From positions 3,535,527-3,599,526 of the forward strand of contig CP051244.1 in NCBI GenBank assembly GCA_017795045.1: a DNA stretch of 64,000 bases, read 5' to 3'. Positions 4,927 to 64,000 of this stretch are shown piece after piece (within the stretch, counting starts at the first letter, position 1; each line of letters begins with the position of its first letter). The notes beneath the pieces were generated by a model. The model ran no database searches. It was not told where the DNA came from and saw only the letters and a list, made by a program, of their open reading frames with translations. The translations under genes were made by a program, and so were the position numbers. This stretch comes from Allomuricauda sp. (GTDB lineage: Bacteria > Bacteroidota > Bacteroidia > Flavobacteriales > Flavobacteriaceae).

Positions 4927-6168
4927 ATGAAACAAAACAAGCATAGTATTTTCAACGATATTCCGGACGAGCAAAAAAGCGGTGTCGTTTTTAAAAACCA
5001 TCAGCTTAAAAAAAAGATCATTCAACTGCTGGACAAAAAAGGAGCAGCCACGATCAACGACATCTCAAAAAAATTCAATTCCAGCTCCCCCAAGGTAAAC
5101 AAACTCATCCAAGAGCTCATAGATGAAGGGCTCATTGAAGATCTTGGCAAGGCAGAGACCGACGTAGGCAGACGCCCCCACCTTTATGGACTCATTGGTG
5201 ATTCCATGTATTTTTTGGGGGTTGATTTAGGACACAACTCCATAGAAATTGGACTAATGGACTTCAATGAGAATCCCATCCATTTTTCCAAGGACATTGA
5301 ATTCAACTTGGAAAACTCAGAAAAGTCCTTGCTTCAATTGTACGACATCATCAACCATTTTATAGACAAAAATGCCGATTGGAGGAACAAAATTGTACGC
5401 ATTGGCGTCAACCTTTCCGGCCGTGTAAACCATTTAAGCGGATATAGCCACAATTTTTTCAACTTCACAAAAACCCCATTAAGCAGCATCCTTGAAGAAA
5501 AAATTGGAATCCCCTGTTTTATTGAAAACGACACCCGGGCCAGGGCATTTTATGAATTTTACAGCCACAAATCCAAGGACAGCGGAAACATCCTTTACAT
5601 AAATGCAGATTATGGTCTGGGACTGGGCGTACTTGCCCAAGGAAAGCTTTTGTATGGAAAATCGGGCTATGCAGGAGAGTTTGGGCATATCCCTTTTTTC
5701 GATAACGAAATTATCTGCATATGCGGTAAAAAAGGCTGTCTGGAAACCGAAGTTTCAGGAAGGGCCCTTGAAAAACAGTTCAAGGACAAACTCAAGGAAG
5801 GGCAATCCTCATCCCTGCAGCATAGCTTTGAGGATCTTGATAATATCAGAATGGACGACATTATCAAAGCAGCCAACAATGATGACACCCTAAGCATTGA
5901 ACTTATTGGAATCATGGCCGAAAAACTCGGAAAGGGAATAACTACCCTGATACATTTATACAATCCGGAACTCATCATTTTTGGAGGTGCCTTGGCGAAA
6001 TCCAAAGACCATTTCTTTCTACCCCTCCAAATGACCGTCAACAAATACTCCCTAAGCATTGTTAGGGCCGACACGCAATTGGAGCTATCAAAAGGTGACG
6101 AGGGAGCCGGAGTACTGGGTGCCTGTTATTTGGCAAAACACAAGGTTTTGAATCCAAACCCCTCCTAA
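4927..6168 (+). CDS. ROK-family transcriptional regulator (NagC/Mlc type)
   Basis: The 413-residue protein has an N-terminal winged helix-turn-helix (about residues 28-80, with AATINDISKKFNSSSPKVNKLI) followed by a ROK sugar-binding domain. The sugar/nucleotide-binding start GVDLGHNSIEIG lies near residue 98. IENDTRARAF follows, and the zinc motif (GHIPFF ... CICGKKGCLE) is intact. NagC/Mlc-type proteins bind DNA and are released by a sugar or sugar phosphate. It is divergent from the epimerase-family gene across 287 AT-rich bases and convergent with the sugar porter, whose stop is only two bases away. It is a good candidate for control of the neighbouring sugar genes. Confidence 0.87.
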   Translation: MKQNKHSIFNDIPDEQKSGVVFKNHQLKKKIIQLLDKKGAATINDISKKFNSSSPKVNKLIQELIDEGLIEDLGKAETDVGRRPHLYGLIGDSMYFLGVDLGHNSIEIGLMDFNENPIHFSKDIEFNLENSEKSLLQLYDIINHFIDKNADWRNKIVRIGVNLSGRVNHLSGYSHNFFNFTKTPLSSILEEKIGIPCFIENDTRARAFYEFYSHKSKDSGNILYINADYGLGLGVLAQGKLLYGKSGYAGEFGHIPFFDNEIICICGKKGCLETEVSGRALEKQFKDKLKEGQSSSLQHSFEDLDNIRMDDIIKAANNDDTLSIELIGIMAEKLGKGITTLIHLYNPELIIFGGALAKSKDHFFLPLQMTVNKYSLSIVRADTQLELSKGDEGAGVLGACYLAKHKVLNPNPS

Positions 6169-57257: not shown

Positions 57258-59021
57258 TTATGGTTTTTCGAAGACCAATATCTCCGTTGAGTTCTCTTGT
57301 TCGTGTACCAATTCAATTCTGTTGGCCTCAACCATGTTGATGTACCAGTCCTCGGTAAGCTCTCCCAAAGAGCCTTCTGCGCCCAGATTTAGGTAGAATT
57401 TGAGTACCCCGTCATGGTTTCTCAATACTCTCCAAAGTCCTTCGGCAATTGGATCATCATTTATGGATACCCCTACTTGGTGCATGGTATCGAAATTGAA
57501 TTCCATAGTAGCGTATTCACTGGTAAGGTCTTCATTGTTTTCTTTATACTGCGCAACCATCCATGGTCCACCCATCATGATGTTTCTGATTTCGGCCACG
57601 TCCTCATCATCGGCATTATCATTACAGACCCGTTGTAGGATCAATTCATATCCGATATCCTCTACATCGAACTTAAGCCTATCATTGGCAAGGTCCCTCA
57701 AAGGCCATTCAAAGCTTACTCCAGGTTCATCACCCATAGTGATCATAAGCGACAACACCAACTGGCTGTTAAGGCCTATTTCCCAAGTACCTTCAGAAGT
57801 TGATACGCCATTGCTCAAGGTAACCACACCTTCTGCCATAAACTTGAATTCATAGCCCAACAATCTTTCAATCTCTTCCCCTTGGTTTTTCACCTTTTTA
57901 ATGATCCACTCGCACTCACTTAGGATAGCTCTCAACGTATCAGGGTCTGGTTCTTCCCCAGAATTGATGTCACATCGTTGTTTTAGGACAATTCTATTGC
58001 CGCCTTCAGCATAAAGCTTGATCTTGCCTTCACCAATTTCATAGACCACCCATTCCAAATTAAAATCAACAAGGGTATCAAATTCCAAGGTCAACAAGGG
58101 CCCATGATCGGACTGGCTAGTACTCCATGTACCATTAATGGTATTTCCGCTGGCCACTTTTACTGCTACGGTACCATCTTCGGCAAACGTCATCAAATAT
58201 TCAAAATATTGACCGGTTTGGTCCACATCATCACGAATCACTTCACGTACTTCCCAAGGACATTCCACCAAATAGGCATCCAATCGCTCTTCGGTAAAAT
58301 CGTCATCGTTGTAGTCATCGTCATCGTCCTCGTCACAATCGTCCTTGGCATTGCTCAAGGCAGCGGCCAGTGACGTATTGTTCTCGACAACAATTTCGGT
58401 ACCGTCATATTTTTTTAGGGTAATGGGAAAATCTATGCTCACCAAGGCATTATCCTCAAGTTCGGCAAAAAACTTTCTCATTTGCTCATCGCTTTCAATC
58501 TGGACCTCACCGGACAATTGGTTGTTCACATCAAAAGTGAAGAGCGTGATGGGGTAGACAAAATCGATACATTCAATGTCGTCATCGTCACCTCCTTCAA
58601 GGCAATCCCTGGCCATTTCTTCCAGTTGATCCTTGCTTTGGATTACAATTTCACTAAAATCGGAAAGGGTAATGGTAATGGGAAAAATGATATCCAAAAT
58701 ATCGTCATCATCTTCCAACTCATCAAAGATTTCTTCAATGGTATGCAGATCTTCCTTGGAATCAATGGTGATTTGAATACCATTTACTTCAACGGTATAG
58801 GGGAAGTTAACGGCGAAACAACTGGCGCGATCAACGATATTGTCATACGAGCCATCTTTCGCTGATGTTTTTTGGATCAATTGGGCCGTATTGGAATTGG
58901 CGATGATAGTTTCTTGTTCTTGGGGGCCTCCAACTTCTTCGAACTCATCTTGGCAGGCGGTAAAATTAAGGGCCAAAAGAAAAAGGCCGGTGTAAAAGAA
59001 GTTGCTTATCAACTTTTTCAT
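57258..59021 (-). CDS. Unrecognised repeat-containing surface lipoprotein
   Basis: Using the ATG at 59021 the protein has 587 residues; longer frames add 16 residues before the signal. The lipoprotein signal ends with C23 in ALNFTACQDEFEE, and acidic residues after the cysteine suit surface export. The first half has four related segments (FPYTVEVNG, FPITITLSD, YPITLFTFD, FPITLKKYD) separated by very acidic stretches (DDDDD). The second half has three repeats of about 100 residues starting with CPWEV, CEWII and GPWMV, each with an edge-to-edge beta pattern (lipocalin-like in style). No known family was identified. It is divergent from the ECF sigma gene and has a motif shared with fecR. Confidence 0.78.
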   Translation of the reverse strand: MKKLISNFFYTGLFLLALNFTACQDEFEEVGGPQEQETIIANSNTAQLIQKTSAKDGSYDNIVDRASCFAVNFPYTVEVNGIQITIDSKEDLHTIEEIFDELEDDDDILDIIFPITITLSDFSEIVIQSKDQLEEMARDCLEGGDDDDIECIDFVYPITLFTFDVNNQLSGEVQIESDEQMRKFFAELEDNALVSIDFPITLKKYDGTEIVVENNTSLAAALSNAKDDCDEDDDDDYNDDDFTEERLDAYLVECPWEVREVIRDDVDQTGQYFEYLMTFAEDGTVAVKVASGNTINGTWSTSQSDHGPLLTLEFDTLVDFNLEWVVYEIGEGKIKLYAEGGNRIVLKQRCDINSGEEPDPDTLRAILSECEWIIKKVKNQGEEIERLLGYEFKFMAEGVVTLSNGVSTSEGTWEIGLNSQLVLSLMITMGDEPGVSFEWPLRDLANDRLKFDVEDIGYELILQRVCNDNADDEDVAEIRNIMMGGPWMVAQYKENNEDLTSEYATMEFNFDTMHQVGVSINDDPIAEGLWRVLRNHDGVLKFYLNLGAEGSLGELTEDWYINMVEANRIELVHEQENSTEILVFEKP

Positions 59022-59054: not shown

Positions 59055-59083
59055 TAAAACAACTCTCAAAAAAAAAACCCTAC
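59055..59083 (-). promoter_or_regulatory. Bipartite motif upstream of the repeat lipoprotein gene
   Basis: Read on the minus strand, GTAGGGTTTTTT is followed by eight bases and then GTTGTTTTA. The same layout occurs at 59722-59750 before fecR, with 23 of 29 positions identical and equal spacing. It ends about 33 bases before the ATG at 59021, where a promoter is expected. Confidence 0.55.
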
Positions 59084-59104
59084 CCTTTCTTAAATTTTTT
59101 AAAA

Positions 59105-59112
59105 TATCTTTG
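59105..59112 (+). promoter_or_regulatory. -7 box of the ECF sigma gene
   Basis: TATCTTTG matches TAnnTTTG exactly, 22 bases before the sigma ATG. The sigma factor gene thus appears to use the housekeeping promoter rather than the bipartite motif. Confidence 0.5.
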
Positions 59113-59134
59113 AGAAGGAAACAAACTCCTTCCT

Positions 59135-59635
59135 ATGAGCAATGTTTGCGAAGATCAGATCTTCAGTTCCATATTCAAGGCCCATTCCAAAACGGTATTC
59201 AATTACATCTATTATAAGTTTGGCAATGCCGAAAAAGCAAATGATGCCGTGCAGGAAGCTTTTGTAAAGCTTTGGGAGAATTGCGCCAAGGTAAGCCCGG
59301 AAAAGGCGAAATCCTACGTCTATACAGTGGCCAACAATCTATATTTAAATGTAATCAAGGCCGAAAAAGTGCGGTTGAAGTATGCGAACTCCGTGGATGA
59401 CCATTCCTCTAATCTCTCCCCGGAATTTTTGATGGAGGAAAAGCAATACAGGGAAAAACTGGAAAATGCGCTGAACGAACTTCCCGAAAACCAACGCACC
59501 ACTTTTTTATTGAATAGGATCGATGGGAAAAAATATGCAGAAATTGCCGAAATGGAAGGCGTAAGTATAAAAGCTATTGAAAAACGAATGCATTTGGCCC
59601 TAAAAAGTCTGAGGGAACAGATTGATGGGATATGA
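59135..59635 (+). CDS. ECF RNA polymerase sigma factor (FecI-like)
   Basis: The 166-residue protein has sigma region 2 (about 8-80, with IFKAHSKTVFNYIYYKFGNAEKANDAVQEAFVKLW, which includes the -10-binding helices) and region 4 (about 105-160, with LPENQRTTFLLNRIDGKKYAEIAEMEGVSIKAIEKRMHLAL). It is of the Bacteroidota FecI-like type. It lies 136 bases before fecR, which encodes its likely anti-sigma factor, and the TonB receptor follows. Confidence 0.92.
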   Translation: MSNVCEDQIFSSIFKAHSKTVFNYIYYKFGNAEKANDAVQEAFVKLWENCAKVSPEKAKSYVYTVANNLYLNVIKAEKVRLKYANSVDDHSSNLSPEFLMEEKQYREKLENALNELPENQRTTFLLNRIDGKKYAEIAEMEGVSIKAIEKRMHLALKSLREQIDGI

Positions 59636-59721
59636 TACAATGGACAATTCACAATTAGCAATAATCAATTGCGGTTAACTATTATTGAACATTGCTCATT
59701 GCAAGATTGTAAATTGAAAAA

Positions 59722-59750
59722 GTAGGGTTTTTTAGAAGAGTGTTGTTATA
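59722..59750 (+). promoter_or_regulatory. Bipartite motif upstream of fecR
   Basis: GTAGGGTTTTTT (59722-59733), eight bases, then GTTGTTATA (59742-59750), ending 21 bases before the fecR ATG. It matches 59055-59083 on the other strand at 23 of 29 positions with no gap. It is a candidate target promoter of the adjacent sigma factor. Confidence 0.55.
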
Positions 59751-59771: not shown

Positions 59772-60686
59772 ATGCAAGAAAATTACTTGGCAAAATGGCT
59801 CAACGGAGAGCTTTCCGAGGAAGAACTCGCGGAATTTAAAAAGTCCGACGAGTATGCTTCCTATCAGAAACTCAAGGAGGTTTCAAGCACATTGAAAGCT
59901 CCTGATTTTGATATGGACCAAGCTTTTGAGCGCATCAACGAGGAGCGTATGGGCCAAACCCCGAAGGTCATTACCCTTAACCCGTTCAAGAAATTCCTTA
60001 AGGTGGCTGCCGTCATTGCCATTATGCTTGCCGGTTCCTATTTCTACCTCAACACCTTGGATGAATCCATCAGTACGCAATTTGCAGAACGCACAGAGGT
60101 GACTCTTCCCGACAACTCCGAGATTTTCCTCAATGCCGATTCCCAGATTTCCTACAGTAAAAAGAATTGGGACAAGGAACGAAACGTCTCCTTGAATGGA
60201 GAAGCCTTCTTTAAGGTGGCCAAAGGAAAAAAATTCACTGTGGCAACAGACCATGGAACCGTAGCTGTATTGGGCACCCAGTTCAATGTGGAAAACCGCA
60301 AGAGTTTTTTTGAGGTCACCTGTTATGAAGGATTGGTAAGTGTTGCGTTCAACAACCAAGAGACCAAACTGCCCGCCGGTTCTTCGTTTTTGGTTATCAA
60401 TGGAAAATTGGTGGACACATCCCAACCCAAGGAAGCCCAACCTTCTTGGATGAACAATGAAAGTAGCTTTGAGGGCATTCCCCTGGAATATGTATTCGCC
60501 GAGCTGGAAAGACAGTTCAATGTCCATGTAAAAACTGAGAATATAAACACAGCATTACTTTTTACAGGCACTTTCAACAACACAGACCTCAATATGGCGT
60601 TAAAAAGTATAAGTACCCCCTCCCAAATCCATTACAAACTTGAGGGTGATAATGTACTTTTCTATGCTGGGAACACTCCGCAATAG
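59772..60686 (+). CDS. FecR-family anti-sigma factor
   Basis: The 304-residue protein has a short cytoplasmic N-terminal part with a sigma-binding helix (about 1-70), one membrane helix (about 75-92, VAAVIAIMLAGSYFYL) and a periplasmic FecR domain (about 105-215, with RTEVTLPDNSEIFLNADSQISYS and FKVAKGKKFTVATDHGTVAVLGTQFNV). A DUF4974 STN-like tail (about 225-300, with LEYVFAELERQFNVHVKTEN) completes it. It would hold the sigma factor inactive until the TonB receptor reports ligand. Its gene overlaps the receptor gene, so they are translated together. Confidence 0.9.
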   Translation: MQENYLAKWLNGELSEEELAEFKKSDEYASYQKLKEVSSTLKAPDFDMDQAFERINEERMGQTPKVITLNPFKKFLKVAAVIAIMLAGSYFYLNTLDESISTQFAERTEVTLPDNSEIFLNADSQISYSKKNWDKERNVSLNGEAFFKVAKGKKFTVATDHGTVAVLGTQFNVENRKSFFEVTCYEGLVSVAFNNQETKLPAGSSFLVINGKLVDTSQPKEAQPSWMNNESSFEGIPLEYVFAELERQFNVHVKTENINTALLFTGTFNNTDLNMALKSISTPSQIHYKLEGDNVLFYAGNTPQ

Positions 60687-63228
60687 CCAGTTCTGCCTTT
60701 TGTTGGGCTTTTTACTGTTCTTCCTCACCCTACCCGCCCAGGAAAAACAGCAAACCCCTGTTGACCTTATTTCTTATATAAAAACCTTGGAAGATCGGTT
60801 CAATATCAAATTTTCATATCTCAATGAGGATTTGGACGATTTCAAGCTCTCCGTTCCGGAGAACAGAGTCAGTTTGGAGGACATTCTAAACTATATCGAG
60901 TCCAAATTTCAGATACGGGCAGAAAAACTTGATGAACGCTACTATACCCTGACCAAGAGTTCCCATGTATCCCTTTGCGGAACGGTACTGGACAACTTTG
61001 CCGAAAATACCATTCCCGGTGCTTCCTTGGAGGTTTTAGGAACCAAGATTGCCCAGACCACGGATACCAATGGCAGTTTTTCCATGAACAACATACCTAG
61101 GGATGCCTCTCTTAAAATTCGATATTTGGGCTATCTCACCAAGTACATTCCCATTGAAGATTTGATCCGCCAAGGGCCTTGTACAAAAATCCTGATGGCC
61201 CCGCACTACGAACAATTGGATGAGGTCATTGTATACAAGTATTTGACCACGGGAATCCTCAAAGAACAAGATGGGAGTATTACCTTGAACACCGCTGAAT
61301 TTGGAATCCTGCCAGGACTTATAGAACCCGATGTGTTACAGACCGTTCAGGCGCTGCCCGGAATAAAAAGTATTGATGAGACCGTATCCGACATCAATGT
61401 GAGGGGTGGCACCAACGACCAGAACCTCGTACTGTGGAACGGCATAAAAATGTATCAGTTTGGGCATTTTTTTGGGTTGATATCTGCCTTTAACCCTTAT
61501 CTGACCGATAAGGTCTCCGTTATAAAAAATGGGACGCCCGCTGCCTTTGGTGATGGGGTGAGCAGCGTCATTCAAATGGAGACCAACAACCACATCACCG
61601 ACGGTTTTGAAGGTGGTGCAGGTTTCAACTTTATCAGTGGGGATATTTTTGGCCAATTTCCGTTGAACGATAAAATCGGGCTTCAGTTTTCCGCGAGACG
61701 CTCCACTACAGATTTTCTGAATACCCCCACTTACAGCAAATTCTTTGACAGGGCCTTTCAGGACAGTAAAGTCATCGACGAGAATAATGTTACGGTGGAC
61801 GACAACATTTCCCGGAACGAGAATTTCTTTTTCTATGATTTCACCGGAAAATTGCTCTATGACATCAATGATTATCACAAAGTAAGGTTCAGTGCCATCC
61901 ACATCAACAACAATCTGGAATATGTGGAAACTGATGAAACCAATGACGAAACCACCCAGAGTATTTTGGAACAGACCAATATTTCCGTTGGTGGGCAATT
62001 GCTAAGTCAGTGGTCCGATAGGTTTTCCACTCACCTCAACCTGTATTATTCCAGGTACAATTTGGATGCCCAAAGCATCTATGCCAACCAGATACAACAA
62101 TTGGAACAAAAAAACATTGTGGACGAAAGGGCCATTAAGCTTAACACGGAATATCAGTTCTCGGACCAGCTAGAATGGACCAACGGCTTTCAATATATTG
62201 AAACAGGGGTTATCAATCGGGCTTTTGTGACCCAACCCAGTTTTGACACCAATATCAAGGGGGTCATCCGTATTCATTCGCCCTATTCAGAAATTGGATA
62301 CCGCTCTTATGAAAACAAATTCATTGGAAAATTTGGTGCCCGTATCAATCTTATTGAAAACTTGTATACGTTCAATAAACTCTTGGTGGAACCCCGCATC
62401 AACCTTAACTTCAAATTGGCCAATTATCTGCGTGCCCAAGTACTGGGGGAATTTAAAAGTCAGACCACCAACCAGATCATCGATTTGGAACAAAACTTTT
62501 TGGGGATTGAAAAACGCCGATGGACCTTATCCAACGATGACACCCTTCCTGTGACACAGAGTATGCAAGGTTCGGTGGGCATCAATTACGAAAAGAACAA
62601 TTTTTATCTGGGCCTTGAAGGGTTTTATAAGAATGTGGATGGGATCAGCACCCGCACCCAAGGTTTCCAGAACCAAAATCAATTCAGTGGGGAAATAGGT
62701 AGCTATGATGTAAAGGGGATTGAGTTCCTCATCAACAAAAGAGGCGACCATTATAGCACATGGCTGAGCTATACCTACAACAAAAATGATTACACTTTTG
62801 ACTCCATTGTGCCCCATAGCTTCCCCAACAATCTGGACATCCGGCATACCGTCTCCTTTGCGGGAACCTACAACTACCAAAACCTAAAATTGAGTCTGGG
62901 GATCAATTACCGGACCGGAAAACCCTATACCGAACCCTTGGATGGGGATGAGGCATTGGACAACTCTTTTTTCCCGGCCAGAATCAATTATAGATCCCCC
63001 AACAGCAGTCGTCTTCCCGAATATTTCAGGGCCGATGCCTCTGCCATCTACAGTTTTGATCTCTCCCGAAGGATACGTGCCAATGCAGGGGTATCCCTCT
63101 TAAATATGACCAACCGAAAAAATAGCCTGAACCGGTATTACCGTGTCAATGATGAAAACCAGATTGAAGCTGTGGAAAGCGTTTCTCTAGGTATTACCCC
63201 CAATGTAAGTTTCAGGGTGAATTTCTAG
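60664..63228 (+). CDS. TonB-dependent receptor with N-terminal STN signalling domain
   Basis: From the ATG at 60664 (23-base overlap with fecR; ATG at 60652 is an alternative) the protein has 854 residues. It has a signal peptide ending TLPAQ, an STN-type signalling domain (about 30-95, with LEDRFNIKFSYL and LEDILNYIESKFQIRAEKL), a carboxypeptidase-like domain (about 105-190, with GTVLDNFAENTIPGASLEVLGT), a plug domain with VRGGTNDQNLVLWNGIKMYQ and a barrel ending in VSFRVNF. It has no SusD partner, and 854 residues is shorter than SusC. STN domains contact FecR, so this receptor probably signals ligand binding to the sigma factor. The ligand is unknown. Confidence 0.9.
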   Translation: MLGTLRNSQFCLLLGFLLFFLTLPAQEKQQTPVDLISYIKTLEDRFNIKFSYLNEDLDDFKLSVPENRVSLEDILNYIESKFQIRAEKLDERYYTLTKSSHVSLCGTVLDNFAENTIPGASLEVLGTKIAQTTDTNGSFSMNNIPRDASLKIRYLGYLTKYIPIEDLIRQGPCTKILMAPHYEQLDEVIVYKYLTTGILKEQDGSITLNTAEFGILPGLIEPDVLQTVQALPGIKSIDETVSDINVRGGTNDQNLVLWNGIKMYQFGHFFGLISAFNPYLTDKVSVIKNGTPAAFGDGVSSVIQMETNNHITDGFEGGAGFNFISGDIFGQFPLNDKIGLQFSARRSTTDFLNTPTYSKFFDRAFQDSKVIDENNVTVDDNISRNENFFFYDFTGKLLYDINDYHKVRFSAIHINNNLEYVETDETNDETTQSILEQTNISVGGQLLSQWSDRFSTHLNLYYSRYNLDAQSIYANQIQQLEQKNIVDERAIKLNTEYQFSDQLEWTNGFQYIETGVINRAFVTQPSFDTNIKGVIRIHSPYSEIGYRSYENKFIGKFGARINLIENLYTFNKLLVEPRINLNFKLANYLRAQVLGEFKSQTTNQIIDLEQNFLGIEKRRWTLSNDDTLPVTQSMQGSVGINYEKNNFYLGLEGFYKNVDGISTRTQGFQNQNQFSGEIGSYDVKGIEFLINKRGDHYSTWLSYTYNKNDYTFDSIVPHSFPNNLDIRHTVSFAGTYNYQNLKLSLGINYRTGKPYTEPLDGDEALDNSFFPARINYRSPNSSRLPEYFRADASAIYSFDLSRRIRANAGVSLLNMTNRKNSLNRYYRVNDENQIEAVESVSLGITPNVSFRVNF

Positions 63229-64000
63229 GCCAGATGGTCCAAATCAAGGTTGAACATCTTCTTGAATGTTTCAAATAGTGTTGGAAAATCCTTTTTGAAA
63301 AGTTCCGGGGTTTCTATAAAATTTTCACAGGCCACCGCAAAAAACTCCAGTATGTTCACCTTGGCATAGTCCCTAAAATAATCTGTGGACTCCATCCGTG
63401 ATATAAAACTTTCATCCGAGAACATCCTTTGCATCCTTCGAAATCCAGCTTGAAATTTCAAAGACTCCCATGAATTCCTGCCTTTTGTTTCATGGTACAA
63501 GGCATGTGAAAACTCATGAATTGCAAGATTAACATTGTCATCCGATCGCTCAAAACCTTTTTGTAAGTTATCCGCAGCAAAAACAACAGTTTTAAGACCA
63601 ACGTTATACTCCCCTAGATGATGCTTTCTATTGATCAAGGAATAATATTCCGAGGGATAGATCACTATACGGTGCACGGACCTTCGAAATTTATAATTTC
63701 TCATCCCCAGTGTCAATAAACATGCAGCAGCACTGACCAAAAGTTTTAATTCCTGTTTATGAGCAACAGGACCTCTAAAAGTAAAATGTTTTCTTGTCCT
63801 GAACCAAGAAACCCTTGTGAATAAATTTTCACGCTGTTCCAAATCCAACCTATTGATCGAGGGGATTTTGGACTGAATGATAAAAATTTCCTTTGGGGTA
63901 AGTGGCTTTGGTCTATTAAAAGGATTTAGCTCATAGAGGTCAATGGCATAATTGACGATATAAACCAAATAGGAAAGTATAAAGAGAATACAGGCTATGG
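63225..64000 (-). CDS. MtfA/M90-type zinc peptidase (5' end cut by window)
   Basis: Only the C-terminal part lies in the window. The reading frame stays open to base 64000 and beyond the annotated-looking TTG at 63968; the upstream codons give a hydrophobic stretch (ACILFILSYLVYIVNY), so the true start lies outside and the protein likely has an N-terminal membrane helix. The zinc motif HEFSHALYHE (in NLAIHEFSHAL) and ILEFFAVACENFIETPE match the MtfA-type/M90 peptidases that in E. coli act with Mlc. The stop overlaps that of the receptor gene (CTAG). Confidence 0.83.
   Translation of the reverse strand, partial: IACILFILSYLVYIVNYAIDLYELNPFNRPKPLTPKEIFIIQSKIPSINRLDLEQRENLFTRVSWFRTRKHFTFRGPVAHKQELKLLVSAAACLLTLGMRNYKFRRSVHRIVIYPSEYYSLINRKHHLGEYNVGLKTVVFAADNLQKGFERSDDNVNLAIHEFSHALYHETKGRNSWESLKFQAGFRRMQRMFSDESFISRMESTDYFRDYAKVNILEFFAVACENFIETPELFKKDFPTLFETFKKMFNLDLDHLA

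Follow-up and report, generated by a model that had tools for sequence, protein, structure and literature searches.

The FecI-FecR-FecA system is the model for cell-surface signalling in which a signal passes from a receptor to FecR and on to an ECF sigma factor. Small RNAs belong to the sigmaE regulons of enterobacteria, where RybB and MicA are examples, and FoxJ is reportedly the small RNA of a sigmaE-type regulon in Fusobacterium. TonB-dependent receptors (TBDTs) can also have partner lipoproteins, as in SusC-SusD, and BtuB is said to pair with the surface lipoprotein BtuG. Among flavobacteria, the accessible text of PMC9723704 describes an ECF motif of F. psychrophilum, SM6, with a CGT box and T9SS genes among its targets.

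The locus studied here resembles each of these systems in part. It holds an ECF sigma factor, a FecR-type anti-sigma factor and a TBDT with a putative N-terminal signalling-type domain in the same order as FecI-FecR-FecA, and as parts of FecI/FecR surface signalling they belong to a known kind. Unlike in that system, a divergently encoded lipoprotein is regularly present as a fourth component, the sigma gene is not under its own motif, and the proposed regulon, with boxes GTAGGGT and RTTGTT, reaches an RNA and tiny membrane proteins. As with the sigmaE small RNAs, an ECF-type promoter-like site precedes a putative terminated RNA with an invariant central stretch. Here, however, the sigma factor is FecI-like and accompanied by FecR and a TBDT, and none of the five RNA loci scanned matched an Rfam family at gathering score, the best matches lying far below threshold. 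The combination of a TBDT and a partner lipoprotein is shared with BtuB-BtuG and SusC-SusD, but this lipoprotein is modelled as lipocalin-like barrels plus alpha/beta elements and has no SusD family match. Like SM6, the motif would fall into the flavobacterial ECF promoter class, yet we found no mention of the GTAGGGT/RTTGTT boxes in the accessible text of PMC9723704. Nor did we find a description of the motif or the RNA in the open-access literature or Rfam (subscription papers and supplements lay outside this search). As far as these searches show, the standing lipoprotein partner, the two-clade promoter code and the regulon of an RNA and tiny proteins are undescribed in open-access literature.

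The window, a stretch of 64,000 nucleotides (C1:3535527-3599526), lies in an Allomuricauda genome of 3,755,467 bases and contains the FecIRA-type layout of an ECF sigma gene beside fecR and a TBDT gene. The sigma gene (59135..59635, plus strand) encodes a FecI-like protein of 166 aa with Sigma70_r2 and Sigma70_r4_2, which scored 120.2 bits against the Bacteroidetes sigma-70 family TIGR02985 of NCBIfam, just below the cut-off of 126.4. On the same strand are the genes for a FecR-like anti-sigma factor of 304 aa with FecR and FecR_C (59772..60686) and for the TBDT of 854 aa (60664..63228). The lipoprotein gene (57258..59021, minus strand), an ORF of 587 aa which we characterised with Pfam, NCBIfam, AF2 and structure comparison, points the other way, and ffh directly adjoins its far side. 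A second, small lipoprotein-like frame of about 150 aa was observed on that far side in other genera (L181, L184, L187, L191, L193, L196). Convergent to the receptor gene, a gene with an HEFSH (HExxH) signature lies at 63225-63968 on the minus strand of the window, and look-alike frames stand at the same position in other genera (L179, L187, L191, L195).

The original prediction had claimed two copies of a bipartite element with equal spacing and 23 of 29 bases alike, and both are present as described. The copy before the lipoprotein gene (59055..59083, minus strand) has the form GTAGGGTTTTTT-N8-GTTGTTTTA and reads GTAGGGTTTTTTTTTTGAGAGTTGTTTTA from 59083 to 59055, while the copy before fecR-TBDT (59722..59750, plus strand) has the form GTAGGGTTTTTT-N8-GTTGTTATA and reads GTAGGGTTTTTTAGAAGAGTGTTGTTATA. 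Both promoter-like elements were identified from sequence, genome search and conservation. The ordinary box that had been claimed for the sigma gene was likewise found in the sequence, as TATCTTTG at 59105-59112 on the plus strand, and the gene has no copy of the motif of its own. This box is of the type TAnnTTTG, which is given as the primary-sigma consensus in the accessible text of PMC9723704 and PMC7366714.

Exactly two zero-mismatch matches to GTAGGGTTTTTT-N8-GTTGTT exist genome-wide, both at the window locus. Allowing up to three mismatches, the whole-genome search gave 13 matches against 42 for the reversed-pattern control; this control is inflated by T-tracts and was dropped as a yardstick, and for that reason we relied on stricter patterns. 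GTAGGGT-N13-RTTGTT occurred at five sites in this genome against one for the reversed control, and at 61 sites against two over ten sigma-bearing genomes, where some of the viewed sites (L397, L406, L409) were without an evident product. Of 60 same-genus genomes, 54 contained the pattern GTAGGGTWTTTT-N8-RTTGTT-NT, and its control was absent from all 60. The five strict sites of this genome precede the lipoprotein gene, fecR-TBDT, a 27-aa protein, a 55-aa protein and an RNA of about 105 nt with a terminator, and every one of these products recurs in relatives. The last three lie beyond the window and had no place in the original prediction. All but two (L095, L103) of the 62 loci viewed in the same-genus strict search were lipoprotein, fecR, 27-aa protein or short transcript; L113, at a contig end, was classed by its leader alone, and same-genus matches beyond the viewed loci were classed by coordinate, if at all. 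We excluded from the regulon a site before a glycosyltransferase, which turned up in two genomes (L018, with three mismatches; L095). None of the five strict sites belongs to the six other FecR loci of this genome, which have no site at up to three mismatches; the nearest, at locus L023, has four. The search of genome and relatives that had been proposed as a check thus tied the motif to FecI/FecR loci across the family, rather than finding it scattered at random.

We then examined conservation at the sigma locus itself. The lipoprotein was detected in all 36 same-genus genomes, counting this one; 23 genomes from other families gave no match. Within the genus, 30 of 30 loci (including our own) have the lipoprotein-side site with no more than one mismatch over its 18 fixed bases, and 27 of 30 have the fecR-side site with no more than four mismatches. 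Of the remaining three, L042 has a site by the 13-base rule, and the sequences of L031 and L036 end too early. Among 199 family genomes, one per genus, sigma orthologues with 71-84% identity were found in 30 other genera, separated by a gap from the next matches at 60% and less. In 29 orthologue loci (L120-L148), a site with no more than one mismatch over 13 positions preceded fecR in 25 of 25 and the lipoprotein gene in 27 of 27 loci whose start was found, the rule having missed four fecR and two lipoprotein starts. The distance from motif end to ATG was 22-24 nt in all 25 fecR loci and 25-38 nt in 26 of the 27 lipoprotein loci, with one at 71 nt. We also compared 25 fecR, 27 lipoprotein and 80 RNA sites, each selected by a limit of one mismatch over 13 positions: GTAGGGT and the TGTT at the end were 100% invariant, and the spacer had diverged.

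Lipoprotein, sigma factor, fecR and receptor occurred together in 18 of 20 longer loci from other genera, and ffh was seen beyond the lipoprotein gene in 13. At L198 (G132), fecR and the receptor were not found beside the sigma gene. At L188 (G273), other genes separate the sigma gene from fecR; the motif still stands directly before fecR, and each target has its own site. We regard this arrangement as a natural experiment that favours the motif as a promoter of the target genes.

A close sigma orthologue is present in 21 of the 28 family genomes with the stricter motif. Among the seven others, the site is at a more distantly related FecI gene (49-60% identity) in five and elsewhere in two (G145, G172). 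Region 4.2 reads KA(I/V)EKR in all 14 aligned motif-linked sigmas (five distant ones, eight orthologues and that of the window); the same position is EAN, EAH, ENH, ENQ or EYH in the five alignable other FecR-linked sigmas of this genome. Five divergent modules were read. Three of them (L457, L458, L460) have GTAGGAA...CTGTT before both the lipoprotein gene and fecR, a fourth (L459) has GTAGGAA...CTGTT before the lipoprotein gene and GTAGGAA...TTGTT before fecR, and the fifth (L454) has GTAGGGT...CTGTT at both sites. The pattern GGGTAGGAA-N14-CTGTT-NTA gave 44 sites in 29 genomes and none in the control, and the GTAGGAA form is absent from all 28 genomes with the GTAGGGT motif. Judged by eye from coordinates, 37 of the 44 sites have a FecI-like match within about 1 kb. 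We viewed six of the seven distal sites. One stands before a 28-aa membrane protein (MTLLIIISALIILNFILLILSVNKKRRV) with size and tail like the 27-aa protein, another before a DUF4382 protein, as in the first clade, and four before unrelated or no evident genes.

The motif, its positions, its conservation, its co-occurrence with the sigma factor and its co-variation are thus established. Some targets have been retained through a change of motif that affects all of them alike, and we consider this the best comparative evidence for a single trans-acting reader, in the simplest case the sigma factor. The comparison supports the original prediction of a FecI-like sigma that targets the motif and has the lipoprotein in its regulon: the six other FecR loci lack a close site, and in other clades the motif differs in step at both sites.

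The lipoprotein starts with a signal peptide and a lipobox at Cys23, followed by QDEFEE. Since this is close to SDDFE, the surface-export consensus derived for F. johnsoniae in the accessible text of PMC5080379, the protein is likely surface-exposed. It had been called unrecognised, and indeed no Pfam or NCBIfam family matched it at threshold. Among 41 relatives, Pfam gave weak matches only (META in three, PB1 in three, DUF3301 in one) and no SusD model, and NCBIfam gave no match. The AF2 model had a pLDDT of 78 and a pTM of 0.43, which leaves the arrangement of domains unsure. It contains alpha/beta elements at about residues 65-230, a part that the structure comparison barely covered, and three predicted helix-led lipocalin-like barrels at about 243-355, 357-466 and 473-587. 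The first barrel matched lipocalin-like proteins overall at Z of about 10-11.5, including 4nw4 (VIA Z 11.5, rmsd 3.6 over 109, model 243-355) and 4qrl (VIA Z 11.0, rmsd 2.4 over 91, model 249-349). The third matched 7kv7 (Z 8.7, rmsd 3.3 over 103), and its best matches were surface glycan-binding protein B; the second was less clear (Z 8.4 to 4boe, in an alignment that spans 357-543). The model thus points to an eight-stranded lipocalin-like barrel as a fold only, with no sequence family match. The top Foldseek matches of the lipoprotein (RseB and others) had TM below 0.2 and were rejected as relatives. In a profile search, relatives were found in 140 of 198 family genera, one genome each. The best 30 matches without a close orthologue were all divergent beside a FecI-like match, as judged by eye from coordinates, and some lower ones were not beside one.

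By Pfam and model, the receptor consists of an N-terminal FecR_C/STN-like domain, CarbopepD_reg_2 and a plug. The original prediction of an STN receptor has to be qualified: the N-terminal 80-residue piece matches PF16344 FecR_C (E 3.1e-6) rather than the STN model, while in the AF2 model (pLDDT 70) its helix/strand order is compatible with STN and the closest structures by Foldseek are FoxA and FpvA. The further suggestion that the lipoprotein stands in place of SusD found no support in the family models. NCBIfam gave no match for the receptor, and there is therefore no sign of a SusC-like receptor or a replaced SusD; the lipoprotein has no NCBIfam match either, and its 41 relatives have no SusD model.

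The RNA site at C1:1877850 precedes a predicted short transcript of about 105 nt that ends in a hairpin and a T-run. We aligned 24 same-genus sequences that lie downstream of the motif and contain TTAGGTTGG, dropping the masked L059. The central stretch CATATGTTTAGGTTGGTTTTGATTTTA is followed by the terminator hairpin and is invariant in 24 of 24 sequences, which were chosen partly by a nine-base piece of this stretch. In the four sequences tested, the predicted fold of the RNA was better than that of shuffled sequence (z -2.5 to -4.6), and RNAalifold covariation within the genus is weak, with a double change in two of 16 pairs. Support for the structure comes from the terminator arms, which vary across genera and stay complementary. 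By a simple rule, a perfect G+C-rich arm was found in 58 of 76 loci and was lacking in 18; the 58 comprise 26 distinct strings, several of which are one arm trimmed to different lengths.

A covariance model of the RNA matched 34 of 198 family genomes, namely 29 of 31 with a sigma orthologue and five of 167 without (Fisher p about 2e-27). The match in G138 is a bare terminator without motif or core, and the model missed G273, where the motif, the core and an insertion between them were seen by eye. The corrected count is still 29 of 31, the exceptions being G138, with a diverged candidate only (L392), and G217, where none was found. At L392, the site at 1501 is followed by a non-coding-looking stretch with AGTTAGGTTAGTTTT that resembles the RNA core and is possibly a diverged copy of the small RNA. 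In the sigma-bearing genera, each of the other 27 model matches is accompanied by the motif, with no more than one mismatch over 13 positions. Among the five matches without an orthologue, the three viewed (L170, L175, L177) all lack the motif; the others are in G145 and G247.

A scan of named genomes with the core alone (CATRTGTTTAGGTTGGTTTT), which selects loci independently of the motif, found at least 80 loci. Among the 80 matches listed, GTAGGGT-N13-RTTGTT occurred within 220 nt upstream of the core in 72 and GTAGGGT-N13-R(T/G)TGTT in 79, and the last locus is one more base off; either pattern was present in 0 of 2655 background windows. The listed loci were named Flagellimonas/Allomuricauda/Muricauda, Maribacter, Zobellia, Robiginitalea, Eudoraea, Muriicola, Croceivirga and others, all genera that we take to be Flavobacteriaceae, and the remaining ones were unassigned Flavobacteriaceae, Flavobacteriales or Bacteroidia. 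A 14-mer complement search in eight genomes found near-perfect complements of the RNA to be no commoner than in the control. No gene recurred among the 30 complement loci viewed; the matches include the locus of the RNA itself as well as scattered genes. Lipoprotein leaders of the other motif clade (L457, L458, L460) begin TATANTCAAAANGCTATG, much like the conserved 5' end of the RNA, and a duplication of the lipoprotein promoter and leader may have given rise to the RNA gene.

Two of the strict sites precede small membrane proteins. At C1:3406319, the motif stands before a 27-aa single-span protein (MGTFFTVLLLLLILNFCLLLVSVNRVK). Just upstream of the 27-aa gene in this genome (6050 in L013), a second tiny membrane-protein frame, without the motif, MNTFFGILLLLLVINALLLVLSVNGSKKNFSGGIFNKH, was seen at 5856-5972 and is likely a paralogue. 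At C1:2579457 (minus strand), the motif precedes the 55-aa membrane protein, which is present in 25 of 40 same-genus genomes. The motif was counted at 20 of the 25 loci, with a start found by rule in 17: 13 of these 17 have the strict motif 90-97 nt upstream, three are one base off, and in one (L414) the boxes are one base further apart. The 55-aa protein and the motif also occur in three other genera (G190, G138, G114). In the first clade, a DUF4382 protein (Pfam) follows the motif at L103 and L387. Small exported proteins of the LSYYEQR type (L230, L393) and the VNGT...DFNGDV type (L410, L411) were also observed behind the motif, each in two genera.

We consider it highly probable, on comparative grounds, that RNA polymerase with the FecI-like sigma reads both window sites as core promoters and that the four genes make up a surface-signalling unit. 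Long T-tracts are common, and the three-mismatch control returned more matches than the pattern, so that a chance likeness of two T-rich stretches might be suspected; conservation in 30 of 30 same-genus lipoprotein leaders and in 29 other genera refutes this, as do the zero control matches in 60 genomes, and we give chance a negligible probability. The motif could instead be the operator of a DNA-binding regulator, with the sigma factor merely a neighbour. Sites do exist at genes far from the sigma gene, and a transcription factor co-inherited with it could in principle read them. Against this, the motif consists of two short invariant boxes with fixed spacing and a free spacer at core-promoter distance from the starts, it co-varies with the sigma clades and follows sigma presence, and no further regulator gene recurred as a fixed part of the 20 longer loci. 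An operator is thus very unlikely. Scarcely more credit is due to the conserved transcript being a leader with a tiny ORF or a small-protein mRNA, rather than a trans-acting small RNA. Most sequences have an ATG in the conserved 5' element (AAATTGCTATGAAAAAG), in many cases with a short frame behind it, but the ATG is lost in some genera (CTCTGA in L150, CTAGGA in L152, CTGCGA in L164) while the adjoining bases are kept, so the element does not look like a coding start codon, and a leader peptide was judged unlikely. Moreover, the frames vary in length and end, the strongest conservation is in the central stretch (24 of 24 same-genus sequences), and the terminator arms differ between genera with complementarity kept.

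As for its purpose, the unit might mainly serve nutrient uptake, the receptor and lipoprotein binding and importing a substrate and the regulon acting as feed-forward for uptake. Pairs of a TBDT and a surface lipoprotein exist (BtuB-BtuG), the receptor model resembles FoxA and FpvA, and the best matches of the third barrel are surface glycan-binding protein B (Z 8.7); we hold uptake to be a serious candidate, if a little short of an even chance. Beyond the receptor itself, however, the five sites of this genome hold no transport or uptake enzyme gene, because of which the purpose leans to envelope adjustment, with which the RNA, the tiny membrane proteins and the lipoprotein fit at least as well.

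With the FecI-like sigma as the reader, the circuit would work as follows. At rest, FecR would hold the sigma factor. By analogy with FecIRA, the receptor, probably together with the surface lipoprotein, would meet a signal, its N-terminal domain would act on FecR, and the sigma factor would be freed to read GTAGGGT-N13-RTTGTT-NTA. The T-run at the motif fits the effect reported in the accessible text of PMC6056542, where a T-tract beside the -35 box helps several B. subtilis ECF sigmas. Transcription of fecR and the receptor gene would reset the switch and make more sensor. The sigma gene has a primary-sigma type box, and feedback would therefore run through the anti-sigma factor. The freed sigma would also transcribe the lipoprotein gene, the RNA of about 105 nt, the 27-aa and 55-aa membrane proteins and, in relatives, DUF4382 proteins, and the RNA would in turn act on mRNAs. 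We infer the role of the sites as promoters, that of the sigma factor as their reader, and the production of the RNA and its action on mRNAs.

For a FecI-type sigma of Bacteroidota, a concrete candidate promoter is now at hand, along with a small regulon that can be tested and that includes an apparently undescribed small RNA under a sigma factor of this type. The lipoproteins, with relatives in 140 of 198 sampled genera, form a family that Pfam and NCBIfam do not recognise, and the two motif clades offer a natural system for studying the co-evolution of sigma factor and promoter. Tentatively, and as something possible rather than probable, we propose that Flavobacteriaceae may have an envelope-sensing system of their own, in which a FecI-type sigma, driven by a TBDT and a triple-lipocalin surface lipoprotein, would take the part of enterobacterial sigmaE, with a post-transcriptional arm of a dedicated, lineage-conserved small RNA and tiny membrane proteins, and in which sigma factor and promoter would have been re-tuned together at least once while the core targets were kept.
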